Assembly: GCA_902529795.1 (NCBI GenBank)
Contig: CABZXY010000008.1
Coordinates: forward strand, 1 to 34,096
Origin: an uncultured Alphaproteobacteria bacterium
GTDB taxonomy: Bacteria; Pseudomonadota; Alphaproteobacteria; HIMB59
Length of the DNA stretch: 34,096 bases
Reading direction: 5' to 3'
Positions 1 to 6,345 of the stretch are shown here, in pieces (the first letter of the stretch is position 1; each line of letters starts with the position of its first letter). The notes below the pieces were generated by a model, which was not told the DNA's origin, did not search any database, and saw only the letters and a list, made by a program, of their open reading frames with translations. The position numbers and the translations under genes were made by a program.

Positions 1-439
1 GTACTAATTTAAAATAATTGAGCCTATCTATATTAAATTTAAAACCATTTTTTGATTTATGGTAATTATATTCATCTAAGAAAAAATTATTTTCAAGCAT
101 AAGATTAGATTGCTTAATACAATATTGTAAATAAACAGAGCGACAATATTCACTAGGTCTTCTTATAAAACAAATAATTTTTACTTTATTGCCATATGTC
201 TTGAATAAAATATTAATATATTTTAGCCAATTATGGGGGTCATAATTTAAAATTTCTTCATTTGAAATTAAATACTTTCTTTGAGAATTGATCATATTCT
301 TTACTTCTTCTTTATTACACTTTTTGAATGTCTTGTAATTAAGAAGGATTATAAATTTTTTTTTTTCTAATAGTTTAAAATATTTTTTTTGAATAAAAGT
401 TGAAGAAGTTCTGGGAAGGCCTATGTGAAGATAAAGCAT
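1..439 (-). CDS. Sulfotransferase-like protein, partial (C-terminus off the left edge)
   Basis: An open frame of 146 codons reads leftward from an ATG at 439 and runs off the window without a stop. The N-terminus (MLYLHIGLPRTSSTF) matches the PAPS-binding 5'-phosphosulfate loop of sulfotransferases (IGxPRTGTT type). A second segment around residue 90 (FIRRPSEYCRSVYLQY) matches the 3'-phosphate motif with R, P, S and Y in the expected spacing. Such enzymes in glycan clusters add sulfate to surface sugars, and the glycan genes to its right support that role. One glycine of the loop is replaced by serine. The C-terminal half is not visible, so the acceptor cannot be guessed. A 29-bp repeat with a TATAAT box lies 53 bases upstream and may be its promoter. 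Confidence 0.7.
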   Translation of the reverse strand, partial: MLYLHIGLPRTSSTFIQKKYFKLLEKKKFIILLNYKTFKKCNKEEVKNMINSQRKYLISNEEILNYDPHNWLKYINILFKTYGNKVKIICFIRRPSEYCRSVYLQYCIKQSNLMLENNFFLDEYNYHKSKNGFKFNIDRLNYFKLV

Positions 440-491
440 TTTAATTATTCAATATAATATTGGTTTATTCCTCATTATTTAAATATTTTAA

Positions 492-520
492 ATTTTATTC
501 GAGTAAGATTATAGAAAAAT
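492..520. repeat. 29-bp direct repeat, left copy, with a leftward TATAAT box
   Basis: This copy is identical over 29 bases to 2532-2560, in the same orientation and exactly 2040 bases apart. Read leftward it contains a perfect TATAAT (508-513) followed by CTTACTCG. It lies upstream of the leftward sulfotransferase-like gene that starts at 439. No good -35 box is visible. It may be a promoter duplicated with glycan cassettes, or a recombination scar. Confidence 0.75.
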
Positions 521-606
521 AAATAAAGAGATTTTCAGAAAATTTATTTTAAAAGGTTTTTTGTTAGAATATATTGTAGGTTGATATGGAGTTAATCCAG
601 TAGCAA

Positions 607-714
607 ATGTTTCAAGCAAAGAAGCACAAACCTGCTAAAATACTCAATAAAATAAAGAGTTTTTGGAAAGCATTTAGTTTTACTGTAAAGTTACTAAATT
701 ATGATCATGCGTAA
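607..714 (+). CDS. Possible 35-residue basic peptide or gene remnant
   Basis: An ATG-initiated frame of 35 codons, rich in lysine (MFQAKKHKPAKILNKIKSFW...), directly follows an in-frame TAG. It overlaps the first possible start of the ATP-grasp gene. There is no convincing ribosome-binding site and no family is recognised. The rest of the stretch 440-700 holds only the repeat at 492-520. This could be the debris of an older gene at a rearranged boundary. Confidence 0.2.
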   Translation: MFQAKKHKPAKILNKIKSFWKAFSFTVKLLNYDHA

Positions 715-1591
715 GGGTGTGGTGAAAATTATGTTTAAGCAAGCAATAAAACCTATTTATTACACCTTGATAAAAGTCATTCCTAGAAACAATTTTGGAG
801 ATAAAATTTTTTCTTTAATTCATTTTTACATAACTTTTCGTCAGTTACCTAATCAAAAAAAGCTGCTGCGTAACTATCTATTTAAACTTAAACACAGCTA
901 CGAAGGCTACAATCCACTTAGAGCCTATATTACTGACAAAGCGTTTGTTAAAGATTATGTTAAAGCGAAAATCGGAGATGTATATAATGTTCCAACAATT
1001 AAAGTTCTTAGTAGCCTAGATGAAGCAAAAGACTTCAACTTTCCACAGCGTTGTTGTATCAAGCCAACGCATCTAAGCGGAGCAGTGATATTGAGAGAGA
1101 ATGACGAAAAAATAGATTTTTCGGTTATTGAAAAATGGTTTATCACGAATCGTTACGAATTAACGCGCCAAAAGCATTTGCGCTACCTAAAGCCAAAACT
1201 TATAGTTGAACCGTTAATTTTTAACACTACTAAAAATTTAGACTATAAGTTTTTTTGCTATAAGGGAAAAGCTAAATTTTTACAAATAGATATTGACAGA
1301 AGGTCAAATCACACTCGTTTGTATTACGACAGAGATTGGAATAAGCAAGGATTTAGTATTATTCATCCAATGTCCTCCAAAAATATTGATAAACCAGTTA
1401 ATTTCGAATTAATGCTGAGTGTAGCTGATAAATTAAGTAGAGACTTCGAGTTTATACGTGTAGATCTTTATACAAATGGTAAAAAAATATATTTAGGTGA
1501 GTTAAGCAATTTTCCTGAAAACGGAAATGCATATTTTGTTCCAAGAGAAGCCGAGGAGATTGGTTCTAAGTTGTTATTTAATGAAACATAG
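701..1591 (+). CDS. TupA-like ATP-grasp protein of glycan biosynthesis
   Basis: The 296-residue product fits the TupA-like ATP-grasp family (PF14305), found in capsule and teichuronic-acid-type clusters and thought to ligate or modify surface glycans. Diagnostic stretches are DKAFVKDYVKAKIGDVYNVP (residues about 79-98), IKPTHLSGAVI near 120, DYKFFCYKGKAKFLQID near 180-196, and the C-terminal VDLYTNGKKIYLGELSNFP with the acidic metal-binding residues. The start is uncertain: ATG at 731 has a GGTGA five bases upstream and may be the true one, giving 286 residues. The gene is visibly richer in G+C than the neighbours at 1810-6345, as if it came from another source. It sits alone on the plus strand between two leftward genes, inside the pair of 29-bp repeats. 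Confidence 0.75.
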   Translation: MIMRKGVVKIMFKQAIKPIYYTLIKVIPRNNFGDKIFSLIHFYITFRQLPNQKKLLRNYLFKLKHSYEGYNPLRAYITDKAFVKDYVKAKIGDVYNVPTIKVLSSLDEAKDFNFPQRCCIKPTHLSGAVILRENDEKIDFSVIEKWFITNRYELTRQKHLRYLKPKLIVEPLIFNTTKNLDYKFFCYKGKAKFLQIDIDRRSNHTRLYYDRDWNKQGFSIIHPMSSKNIDKPVNFELMLSVADKLSRDFEFIRVDLYTNGKKIYLGELSNFPENGNAYFVPREAEEIGSKLLFNET

Positions 1592-1613
1592 CGTTAAATA
1601 GAAAAGGAACTAG

Positions 1614-1739
1614 ACAATACACTACGCACAGACGAAAAGAATTAAGCTTATCGAAGAATTCCAAAAGAAGGGAATACAACTTAAGAATGAAGAAGTGAAT
1701 ACTGATAATGTCCTTGCTTGTAATCATGAATTCTCATGA
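1614..1739 (+). other. Gene-poor spacer with a start-less open stretch
   Basis: Between the ATP-grasp gene and the methyltransferase (1592-1809) there is no gene with a start. One plus-strand frame stays open for 41 codons from a TAG to a TGA and reads like ordinary protein (KRIKLIEEFQKKGIQ...). It has no initiation codon and no recognised family. It may be a remnant of a lost gene. Confidence 0.2.
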
Positions 1740-1809
1740 CAAGATAAGTATCAAAACTTTTGTAGTGAACTAGTACAGTAGATTAGTGAATATGATTTTA
1801 AAGGATTAA

Positions 1810-2526
1810 TTATTTAAATATTTTAATTAAATGTAAATTACCAGGATGCCCCCAATTTCTTCCAATATATTCAAAAGACAACTCATGTTTTATTAAAATT
1901 CTTTCAATTTGTTGCATCGAATATGAAAAATTACGATGTGGATGAGATCTTCCAAAAAATTTGAAATTATACTTTGAAAAGTGGATACTGGTATAAAATA
2001 CAAAGTTTTTTTTTGTGATTTTAAGTAAATTTTTAATGAGTGTATTGATATCCTTGGTGTTTAAATGAGTAAATAAACTGTTTGCAAAAATAAAATTAGG
2101 TTCAGAATTTACTTCACTAAAATCAAATGAACTATTAATAATAAATTGAGGATTTTTAACTTTAATAATTTCAGAGGATATTTCTTTTTCTAGAGCTAAG
2201 TCAATAAGTAGTTGTTCTTTATCGAAACCTACATAGCAATTCTTATCTAGAAATTTAATTAAAAATCGGCCATATCTCAGCGAACCACAACCTAAGTCAA
2301 GAAAAATATCAGATTTCTTTAGTCCTAATTCAGTAATTATTGAATTATAAATAGCGTTTCCATAAAGTTCATAATCAAAACCAACATAATTTCTATAACC
2401 TTTTCTATTTATACCTTTTTTACCTTCTGGATTAATATATTCTGCAAGAAAATTGTAAATTATTCTTCTTAAATATAGGATAATTTCGCTATTATATAAT
2501 TTACTATTTTTTAATATTGTTAACAT
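1810..2526 (-). CDS. SAM-dependent class I methyltransferase
   Basis: This is a 238-residue protein with the class I methyltransferase motif I at about residues 96-104 (FLDLGCGSLRYG), followed by the acidic end of strand 2 (VGFDKEQLL) and a motif like FIFANSLFTHL for strand 4. The acceptor is unknown. Its place among sulfotransferase, ATP-grasp, aminotransferase and oxidoreductase genes suggests methylation of a sugar or lipid of the cell surface. The start lies six bases downstream (leftward) of the right copy of the 29-bp repeat. The TATAAT box there would give a leader of about 15 bases with no ribosome-binding site. It is more AT-rich than the ATP-grasp gene next to it. Confidence 0.75.
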   Translation of the reverse strand: MLTILKNSKLYNSEIILYLRRIIYNFLAEYINPEGKKGINRKGYRNYVGFDYELYGNAIYNSIITELGLKKSDIFLDLGCGSLRYGRFLIKFLDKNCYVGFDKEQLLIDLALEKEISSEIIKVKNPQFIINSSFDFSEVNSEPNFIFANSLFTHLNTKDINTLIKNLLKITKKNFVFYTSIHFSKYNFKFFGRSHPHRNFSYSMQQIERILIKHELSFEYIGRNWGHPGNLHLIKIFK

Positions 2527-2531
2527 TTCAT

Positions 2532-2560
2532 ATTTTATTCGAGTAAGATTATAGAAAAAT
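2532..2560. repeat. 29-bp direct repeat, right copy, with a leftward TATAAT box
   Basis: This is a perfect copy of 492-520. The TATAAT (2548-2553 read leftward) is suitably placed to transcribe the methyltransferase gene. The repeat stops at 2560, and the homology of the truncated aminotransferase begins at 2564, so it marks a rearrangement junction. Confidence 0.75.
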
Positions 2561-2563
2561 TAA

Positions 2564-3586
2564 TTATATGAAAATAAATTTAAGCAAATATTTTTCTCAC
2601 AATATTCTATAACATTTTCTAGTGCAACAGCAGCTTTTGACTCTCTAATTAGTACTTTTAATTTTCCTAAAGGTACAAAAGTACTTTCAACTGAATTAAT
2701 CTTTAATACTTTTTTTTTAAATATTATTTCTCGTGAATGGAAAATTGATTTTTTAAAATTGGATAAAGAATTTAAACTACCCAATAGTTTTGAACTTATA
2801 AATTCAGATTATAAGATTATTTTATTAACTCATCCTTTTGGAATAATCCAAAAGTTTGAAAAAATAAGAAAATTTGCTAAAGAAAATAATATCTTAATAA
2901 TAGAGGATTGCTCTCATGCTATTGGAGGGCAAATTGATTATAGTACAGTAGGTATCGATTCAGATTTTAGAATATTTAGCATAGGCGGAAAGATGATATC
3001 TGGTGGAGAAGGGGGGGTGTTATTAACAAATGATAAAACATCATATAACAAATTAATCATATCTAGCCATCCTTTCAGGAGTGAATTTCAAACTAATATT
3101 GAAAATCAATTTTATCATGAATTTTCGTCACCAAAAAAAAATAGAATCAATCCTATAAACGCTATTTTTGCCAATTATGATTTAAAAAATTTTACAAAAA
3201 AAAATTTTATTATTAATAAAAATATAACGAATTTTAACAAGTTAATTGACAAAATAAATTTTTCAAAAAATATTATCGAATACATCAAACCAGAAAAAAA
3301 TGTAACTTATGGAGGATTTTTTTTTGGCTATCCAATAAGAATTAACGATAAAAATGTTTTAAAAAAATTATTAAAATTTTCTGATATTTTTTTAACTTAT
3401 CCTTGGATTGATTTTAAAAACCTTAATTCAATATACTTTCAAAATAATGAATTTTTTCTAAAGAGGTATCCCTCAGATGAAATTCTTAATGATAAAGATT
3501 TTTTAATTTTTATTAATTATAAATACTTAACTTATAATTATTTATCTTTTAAAATTTTTTTTAGGTCAATATTTAATGATATATGA
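2564..3586 (+). pseudogene. DegT/DnrJ/EryC1/StrS aminotransferase, 5'-truncated
   Basis: The frame is open from 2564, straight after an in-frame TAA, and encodes a PLP-dependent sugar aminotransferase of the DegT family. Aligned from memory with ArnB, the first readable residues (YENKFKQIFFSQYS...FSSATAAF) match about residue 38 onward, so about 37 N-terminal residues and the start codon are gone. The rest is intact: the PLP-binding SSATAA, the aspartate in IIEDCSHAIGG, and the Schiff-base lysine in SIGGKMISGGEGG (codon 2990-2992). The only near-standard start is a TTG at 2759, which would discard the PLP phosphate-binding segment. An ATG at 2568 is in another frame and stops after 14 codons. 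The truncation abuts the right 29-bp repeat. It overlaps the next gene by 11 bases, so it was once an operon partner. It is probably non-functional unless it starts at a rare codon. Confidence 0.75.
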
Positions 3587-4955
3587 TTTTAATCAAGAGA
3601 CTAATTTTTTCAAAGATAAGATATTTGACTATTGCATAGTGGGTTCAGGACTAGCAGGATCAATAATATCAAATAATTTAATTCTCAAAAATCCTAAGTA
3701 TAAAATTTTATTAGTTGAATTTGGCGGTAGATCGTTTGACCATAAAATAATTTCAACAGTTTTTCAAAAAAATAAATATATCAATAAATCTTTTGTAAGT
3801 GGTTTAGGAGGTTCAACAAATACTTGGGCAGGTACGTTAAGTATTCCTAATCTTGAAGAATTAAAAGATTTAAATATTACAAAAGAAACTTTAGATAAAT
3901 ATCAAGCAAAGGTAAAAAAAGAATTAAATATACATTCCCCATTATCTTATAAATCAAATCCTATTTTTAAAAAAAATAAAAATCCATTAAGAGCAAAAAA
4001 TTTATTACTTACTGAAAGTTATGATCTTTTAATAAATTCTTATGTTCAGAGTATTTTTTCTGATAAAAAAAAAATTAAGTATTTAAAGATAAAGAGTAAC
4101 AATTTTAAAAATAGTTCAAAATTATTTTCTAAAAATTTTATTCTTTGCAATAATTCATACTCTATTATTCAGCTATTATTAAATTCTATAAATTCAAAAG
4201 ATTTAAAAATAAATAATATTAATATTGGTAAAAATATATCAAATCACCCAATTATAAATCTTGGCTATTTTGTAAATCATAATAAATATGATCTTGCAGA
4301 CTATACAATTAATAATGATAAAAATTTATATAAAGGATATCGCTTTTTTAAAAAAAATAAATCACATATTAGTTTTTACAGAGTTGATAAAATGAATTTA
4401 AATATTTTTATATTTTATATTAAACAACTTCTGAAAAAAATTTTATTTTTAATTAAATTTAAAAAAGATTTTAAATATTTAAAGATTCCTTTTATTTTTA
4501 AAAACTTTTTTTCAATTAAATATTTAATATTTATGTTTATTGAAATTGATAACTCTGTTAAGTATCAAACAAATCTTTCAAATGTAAAAAATCAATACGG
4601 TAATTATTTTTTAAAACTCAATTTTAATTATAACTTTTTAAAAGATTTTGATTTTGAATATATTTATAAAAAATTAAAGTTAGATTTTAATATTGAGGAC
4701 ATAAATAAAAGTAAAAATCTTTTGTCTTTTGATACTTCACATCATATGGGTGGATTGCTTATGGGTCCGAAATGTAGTAACTCAGTAATAGATTTTAATT
4801 TTAAATATCATAATGCTGATAATTTATATATAATTTCAAATGGAATCTTTCCAAATCATGGCTCTATAAATCCTTCATACCTATTAATTTTACTTTGTTT
4901 TATTTTTGTTGATAAGATTTTCAAAAAAGATGAAAAGACTCCTAAGAATATATGA
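3576..4955 (+). CDS. GMC-type FAD-dependent oxidoreductase
   Basis: The 459-residue protein opens with a dinucleotide-binding fold (YCIVGSGLAGSIISNNLI, residues about 19-36) and an acidic strand end (LLVEFGG). A GLGGSTNTWAG segment near residue 78 is typical of the FAD site of glucose-methanol-choline oxidoreductases. The C-terminus has the GMC active-site region, SHHMGGLLMGP near 391 and NLYIISNGIFPNHGSINPSYL near 420, with the histidine and asparagine expected for catalysis. It probably oxidises a sugar or sugar alcohol during glycan assembly. The middle is extremely rich in lysine, asparagine and isoleucine, reflecting the AT bias. Its start overlaps the end of the DegT gene, indicating one transcript. 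The substrate cannot be inferred. Confidence 0.75.
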   Translation: MIYDFNQETNFFKDKIFDYCIVGSGLAGSIISNNLILKNPKYKILLVEFGGRSFDHKIISTVFQKNKYINKSFVSGLGGSTNTWAGTLSIPNLEELKDLNITKETLDKYQAKVKKELNIHSPLSYKSNPIFKKNKNPLRAKNLLLTESYDLLINSYVQSIFSDKKKIKYLKIKSNNFKNSSKLFSKNFILCNNSYSIIQLLLNSINSKDLKINNINIGKNISNHPIINLGYFVNHNKYDLADYTINNDKNLYKGYRFFKKNKSHISFYRVDKMNLNIFIFYIKQLLKKILFLIKFKKDFKYLKIPFIFKNFFSIKYLIFMFIEIDNSVKYQTNLSNVKNQYGNYFLKLNFNYNFLKDFDFEYIYKKLKLDFNIEDINKSKNLLSFDTSHHMGGLLMGPKCSNSVIDFNFKYHNADNLYIISNGIFPNHGSINPSYLLILLCFIFVDKIFKKDEKTPKNI

Positions 4956-5001
4956 GTAGATTAGTAATTTTTTTTAATTTATATTTTCTAAGTTTATAAT
5001 T

Positions 5002-5881
5002 ATGAAGTCATTATTAAACATATCTGATCTTAGTAAAACCGATTTTTTTGAAATTATTAATAGTGTTGAGATTAAATCTTCTGATTTCGATAATTGTCTT
5101 CTTAATAAAAATATTGGACTAATTTTCGAGAAAAACTCCACAAGAACAAGACTTTCATTTCAAGTTGGCATAAATCAATTAAATGGGAATTTTATTAATA
5201 TTAATTTAAAAGATTTAAATTTAGATAGAATTGAGTCTTTTGAAGATACATTTGAAATAATGGCATGTTATCTGGACTGCCTTGTTTTTAGAACTGTTGA
5301 CCATTCAAAACTTGAAATTGCTAAAAAATATTTTAAGAAACCAGTAATTAACGCTCTGTCAGACATTTCTCATCCTTGTCAAGCTATTTCAGATATTTTT
5401 ACATTAATTGAACATTTTAATCGTAAAGACAATTTTAATATAGTTTGGCTAGGTGATTTAAATAATGTTTTGTATAGTTTAATTGAAACTATTGATTTTT
5501 TTGAGTCTTCTTACATAAATATTTTTACAGATAAAGATATTTATAAAAAAAAAACAAAGATACTTTGATATATCAGAAAAAGTAAATTTTCTGTTTGATA
5601 CTGATAATAAAATTTTAGCAAACGCTGACTGTATTATGACCGATGTTTATAACTCTATGAATGATAGAGAAAATAAAGAAAAAAAATTGATTAAATTTCA
5701 AGTTAATGAGTTGTTAATGAATAATACAAAAAAAGAATGTATTTTTATGCACTGCTTGCCAGCTAAAATTGGCTCAGAGGTAACTGAAAATGTAATTAAA
5801 GGATCAAAATCTATAGTTATTCAACAAGCAAAAAATAGAATGGTAACTCAAAAAGGAATTTTAAAGTGGTTAGATTTTTAG
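5002..5881 (+). pseudogene. argF: Ornithine carbamoyltransferase, split by a frameshift at an A10 run
   Basis: Two adjacent frames (5002-5568 and a second ending at 5881) together encode one ornithine carbamoyltransferase of about 292 residues. The first carries the carbamoyl-phosphate motif STRTR (residues 46-50) and HPCQ (124-127). The second carries TDVYNSMND, in the place of the ornithine-binding SMG loop, and MHCLPA. The break lies in ten consecutive A at 5545-5554. With nine A the frame reads on through FDISEKVNFLFDTDNKILAN into CIMTDVYNSM, a typical ArgF sequence. This may be a real mutation, a sequencing slip, or a gene rescued by polymerase slippage on poly(A). The enzyme makes citrulline for arginine synthesis. 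Its 3' end overlaps the next gene. Confidence 0.85.
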
Positions 5882-6345
5882 TTTTAATAATTATTTTTTT
5901 ATTTGGCTGTGAAATTAATGGCACACAAATTATCAAACCTGAGAAATTTAAATATGATATAATTAAATTCAATACTGTTTCAAAAATACTAGATAATGAA
6001 TTCGCGGCTAATAGCTCCGATCATGAAATTATGAGTGAGATAATTCAGTATTGGTTTGATAATAGAATTAAAACAGATGGATTTGAGGGTAATTTATTTG
6101 TAAATTTAAAAAAAATACAATTTAATAGAGAAAAAAGAAAAGATTACTATAAATTTTCAATTTCTTTGTCATTAGAATTTGTGGAAAAAAAATCTTCAAC
6201 TAACATTAAAAAATATAATGTAAACTCGAATGAATATGGTGAAATTGTTGGTAGTTTTGCTATTAAAGATCAAGATAACCTTGATATAAATTTAATGCAT
6301 AAGGCCCTTGAGAGTATTTCTTCAAAGCTTATAGAGGTAAATTAA
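5866..6345 (+). CDS. Small lipoprotein of unknown function
   Basis: This 159-residue protein starts at a GTG inside the last codons of argF. It has a short hydrophobic signal and a lipobox (FLVLIIIFLFGC, cysteine near residue 15), so it should be lipid-anchored in the periplasm. The rest is soluble, charged and not recognised. Spans near residues 85-115 alternate polar and hydrophobic residues as in a beta-rich fold. Coupling to argF suggests cotranscription but not necessarily shared function. Its stop codon and that of trkH share the bases TTAA at 6342-6345. Confidence 0.6.
   Translation: MVRFLVLIIIFLFGCEINGTQIIKPEKFKYDIIKFNTVSKILDNEFAANSSDHEIMSEIIQYWFDNRIKTDGFEGNLFVNLKKIQFNREKRKDYYKFSISLSLEFVEKKSSTNIKKYNVNSNEYGEIVGSFAIKDQDNLDINLMHKALESISSKLIEVN

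Follow-up and report, generated by a model that had tools for sequence, protein, structure and literature searches.

A DegT-family aminotransferase frame without start codon or N-terminus at an inner junction of a flexible polysaccharide island

Introduction

How does a sugar aminotransferase frame that is otherwise well preserved come to begin, without a start codon, at the very end of a perfect repeat? This question is raised by the window analysed here, which spans contig C8 completely (34,096 bases) in a 960-kb assembly (G000) that consists of 50 contigs and is about 70% complete. The host is most likely a marine alphaproteobacterium of the HIMB59 clade, and the order to which it was assigned divides into two families, matching the published description of HIMB59 (PMC10734472). 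The comparisons covered a genus with 52 species (51 congeneric genomes besides the host) and an order represented by 162 genomes.

Results and Discussion

The aminotransferase frame is open but lacks its N-terminus

On the forward strand, a frame of 340 codons plus stop (2564..3586, with the codons at 2564-3583 free of internal stops) encodes the larger part of a DegT/DnrJ/EryC1/StrS sugar aminotransferase. Residues 2-263 match the Pfam profile DegT_DnrJ_EryC1 (PF01041) at positions 29-285 of 360 (2e-21, 77 bits, cut-off 19.8), with homology setting in at codon 2567 and profile positions 1-28 missing. Alignment of the translation from 2564 with DegT proteins gave the same picture: the solved relatives 1o69 and 4ztc align from about residue 38 onward, and the 23 full-length homologues detected in the order have about 34-60 residues ahead of this point. 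The frame is shut upstream by a TAG (2552-2554), which lies inside the right copy of a 29-bp repeat (2532..2560), and by a TAA (2561-2563) immediately 3' of that copy. Between this TAA and the TTG at 2759, which is the first common start, there is no in-frame ATG, GTG or TTG. With the PglE-, PseC- and ArnB-like members of PF01041, the frame shares the fold-defining core, the GEGG motif and both residues that contact PLP, namely the Asp (codon 2906-2908, IEDCSHA) and the Lys (codon 2990-2992, FSIGGKMISGGEGG), which are aligned with those of the homologues. Unlike these members, it has neither the N-terminal ~28 profile positions nor any start codon.

The beginning of the homology could be placed more closely with a profile built from the homologues in the order. 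Inclusion of residues 1-10 raises the score by 6.4 bits, a gain that was equalled by only 1 in 1000 peptides sampled from the AT-rich 5 kb in which the frame lies. This indicates that the homology reaches within 4-7 bases of the repeat. The first-pass annotation, which had described a frame cut off beside the right repeat and intact downstream of it, including the PLP lysine, is thereby borne out on both points. At its other end, the aminotransferase frame overlaps by 11 bases the gene for a GMC-type oxidoreductase (3576..4955, forward strand, 459 aa, PF05199), and the two are likely to be translationally coupled.

A neighbouring frame offers an alternative start

Seven bases past the repeat, an ATG at 2568 opens a 14-codon frame in the neighbouring register (2568..2612, forward strand), the peptide of which comes close to the main frame in its fit to the DegT profile. 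When placed before the common tail, the main frame scored 158.2 bits with the profile of the order's homologues and the ATG-frame peptide 157.1 bits, compared to 151.8 bits with neither, and the gain of 5.3 bits for the ATG frame is so close to that of the main frame that the exact N-terminus is incompletely fixed. Codon usage did not separate the two frames and thus favours neither. It is therefore conceivable that the gene is naturally short and starts at this ATG, and that its frame was broken within the first 30 bases, either by a real mutation or through an error in the consensus. Two divergent genes would then share the repeat region as their upstream region, and the repeat would have beheaded nothing. 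Consistent with such a reading, the host retains elsewhere (contig C22, 1243-1842) a natural DegT-like protein with only about 10 residues ahead of the same motif, and argF on the window's own contig is likewise broken at a homopolymer. However, the conserved Tyr/Phe-Glu pair of the family is present in the main frame (YENKF, corresponding to FEnkF in the family) and absent from the ATG frame, a long N-terminus is found in all 23 full-length homologues of the order, and the break would have to fall in a run of merely five T. We prefer the main frame, because it has the aromatic-Glu pair that the family conserves and can be read without assuming a frame error, and we consider a naturally short gene to be quite improbable.

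The short DegT-like protein on contig C22 deserves a description in its own right. It belongs to the same island, has 200 aa and a short N-terminus, lacks profile positions 76-162, and has counterparts that are 97% identical in genome G046 and 66% identical in G149. It is perhaps a non-catalytic or repurposed form.

The repeat has no other copies and the block between its copies carries no recombinase

The right repeat copy, 5 bases upstream of the start of a methyltransferase gene on the minus strand, has a counterpart at 492..520, also upstream of a minus-strand gene. The direct repeat is perfect and maximal as an exact match, and none such is expected in shuffled sequence. The two copies bound a 2,040-bp block with a TupA-like ATP-grasp gene (701..1591, forward strand, PF14305) and the SAM methyltransferase-like gene that closes it (1810..2526, minus strand). 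Both genes stand alone in the order: among its 162 genomes the methyltransferase had no match at E <= 1e-8 and the TupA-like gene no relative, and a scan of viral contigs with the methyltransferase found no match either.

A block bounded so exactly by perfect direct repeats, with both of its genes missing from the rest of the order, could be a mobile unit that integrated at a pre-existing repeat beside a gene that was headless beforehand. However, neither a recombinase nor a transposase was detected among the genes of the block by Pfam searches. Further copies of the repeat were absent from the 960-kb assembly and, allowing up to 3 mismatches, from the 51 congeneric genomes, and its core was absent from IMG/VR. 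Hence neither a recombinase gene nor a recurring attachment site, by which an integrase- or transposase-mobilised element is recognised, was found. The base composition also differs between the methyltransferase and the TupA-like gene, which argues against a single unit. Taken as a whole, this makes a mobile unit very unlikely. Even less probable, in our view, is a small non-autonomous cassette system of HIMB59 islands in which these repeats would serve as attachment-like ends, single polysaccharide-modification genes would be exchanged, and whichever gene is adjacent would be cut.

Several further features of this block were recorded. The repeat did not match a tRNA, a known RNA or a shared element. 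Both copies (regions 439-520 and 2526-2560) lie upstream of minus-strand genes with a TATAAT on the minus strand and are possibly a duplicated promoter region. The stretch with the TupA-like gene (521-1800) has a G+C content of 28-38% in an island of about 15-25%, and the gene is flanked by short open stretches (604-711 and 1641-1736) that resemble remnants of neighbouring genes and had no match in Pfam.

The frame lies at the right end of a flexible island

As judged from the sequence, the first 5 kb of the window are the right end of a flexible island of the LPS/O-antigen type, which occupies a chromosomal slot between groEL-mscS and argF. The gene for ornithine carbamoyltransferase, argF (5002..5881, forward strand), is the right border, and the left edge beside mscS-groEL is found on contig C22 of the host and on contig C1 of G046. 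In the complete genome G001 (1,410,127 bp), groEL, mscS and argF are contiguous and the island is absent; the slot is likewise empty in G026 and others. It is occupied by polysaccharide genes in G010, G003, G009, G004 and G029, where reading of the sequences suggests a sugar transferase, another DegT gene, a PglF-like dehydratase and a ligase-like membrane protein. Several sisters have other types of DegT gene upstream of mscS/argF. Thus, one and the same slot varies in gene content, or has none, among relatives.

An LPS O-chain metagenomic island has been described in HIMB59 (PMC10734472), and replacement islands are swapped via homologous recombination (Lopez-Perez 2014, PMC4033161). The island studied here resembles the replacement flexible genomic islands of marine bacteria, including those of HIMB59 and the O-chain clusters of Pelagibacterales (PMC11898729), in the kind of locus, the fixed slot, the strain-specific gene sets and a flank at which identity changes abruptly between clonal frames. 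It differs from them at one of its inner boundaries, where a gene ends up truncated next to a 29-bp repeat. The mscS-argF position was read from the present genomes, and we came across no description of it in the papers on those replacement islands.

The right edge of the island was recently exchanged between species

The first-pass annotation had taken the aminotransferase to be the older resident, beside which the left-hand block arrived later. Identities between genomes do not uphold this order of events. The true sisters of the host are G001 and G007, to which it is 85-96% identical over fhs, ugd, the ABC genes and tesA. For argF, however, the identity to these sisters is no more than 73%, as against 98% to G046. 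The latter is a species of another backbone clade, and its ugd shares just 72-73% identity with that of the window. Likewise, the DNA of the GMC gene is 95% identical to a fragment at a contig end of G046. Along the window, identity to G046 amounts to 95-99% over 4623-6000, mostly to 80-91% as far as 9250, and to about 68-77% in ugd and most genes past 20000, so that the flank shows a step near 6000 of the kind produced by recombination, with discordant relatives on its two sides. G046 is itself a mosaic in this stretch, with a trkH that is 96% identical to that of G001 and a ugd that is 84-85% identical to that of another clade. The near-identity of argF and the GMC gene to G046, set against the 73% for argF in the true sisters, indicates that the GMC-argF edge was recently exchanged between species. 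With its 11-base overlap into the GMC gene, the aminotransferase is part of this edge. By these comparisons, the aminotransferase side is a recently exchanged tract and not an old resident, and the left block may have arrived before it, after it or together with it.

Three other observations concern the same genomes. The aapJQM genes are also mosaic, with identities of about 93-95% to G026 and G029 only. In the window, a break at a run of A leaves argF in two frames, whereas the gene is a single intact frame in G046 and other sisters; this break is either a mutation in the population or a consensus error. Lastly, the start of contig C4 of G007 (1-4000) holds open frames of unlike composition with proline- and glycine-rich translations, which may reflect contamination or a misjoin in that sister assembly.

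No intact counterpart was found

No intact close relative of the aminotransferase was found in the GTDB contigs, IMG/VR, phage records or the 162 genomes of the order, and none of the homologues in these collections had the same 5' end. The best matches, including the closest ones within the order, were 33-34% identical, and the score of the frame is far below every NCBIfam equivalog cut-off. The GMC gene was almost as isolated: a class-wide search matched G046 only, and neither a GTDB scan with a GMC alignment nor a scan of viral contigs found anything. The contig of G046 ends inside the GMC gene (C3:218349), short of the position of the aminotransferase. An empty site was likewise not found in the genomes compared.

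That the contig of G046 also breaks here, beside sequence of 12-15% G+C, is one reason to consider an assembly error, in which two unrelated stretches of a strain-variable and poorly assembled island would have been misjoined at or just past the repeat while the real gene is intact. In addition, the host genome is fragmented (50 contigs, 70% complete), the contig terminates within the island, and an exact match of just 29 bases is on the scale of a small assembly k-mer. However, a false join through the repeat would keep the repeat in front of the gene, including the TAG at 2552-2554, followed by the TAA at 2561-2563. With stops in and right after the repeat, a misjoin through it cannot explain the missing start; the mistake would be needed within a few AT-rich bases 3' of the repeat, or would have to occur without overlap. 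We therefore regard an assembly error as unlikely, though worth bearing in mind.

Proposed origin of the junction

A simple insertion into the aminotransferase gene was also considered. It can be rejected, since no piece of the missing N-terminus was found to the left of either repeat copy, and it is further countered by the in-frame stop within the repeat. A deletion or a replacement must therefore be assumed. The reading that we favour, with moderate confidence, is an illegitimate junction from island replacement that left a probable pseudogene. The aminotransferase and the GMC oxidoreductase would originally have been a two-gene unit beside argF. Recombination or illegitimate joining during replacement of the island would then have set the side with the repeat and the methyltransferase against the aminotransferase at about 2561-2567, thereby removing the promoter, the start codon and about 35 N-terminal residues. 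What remains of the gene would be a pseudogene in which decay is yet to come.

Whereas the truncation, the position in the island and the recent interspecies exchange of the GMC-argF edge are read from the sequence itself, we infer that the junction at 2561 was made by the same or a related exchange, with the repeat taking part. At the junction with the left block, we may be seeing the non-homologous end of that exchange, or else a deletion that preceded or followed it. Homology-facilitated illegitimate recombination during DNA uptake has one homologous and one non-homologous end. By analogy, the homologous end would be on the argF side here, and the non-homologous end would cut the gene at the junction.

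The initial annotation had also concluded that the cut gene implies loss of its product and hence a changed surface sugar. The first step appears sound: the frame has no start codon, is probably a pseudogene, and its product is likely lost. The second step is conjecture, because it depends on the substrate, the pathway and any paralogue in the missing 30% of the genome.

Implications

The locus represents no new kind of system, but an ordinary scar of the shuffling of island genes. On a small scale, it illustrates concretely how the surface-polysaccharide islands of oceanic HIMB59 bacteria are remodelled: the right edge has recently crossed between species along with argF, and at one inner junction a sugar aminotransferase has lost its start. 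If the gene is truly dead, the surface glycan of this strain may miss one amino sugar, which, as a conjecture, could bear on its recognition by phages.
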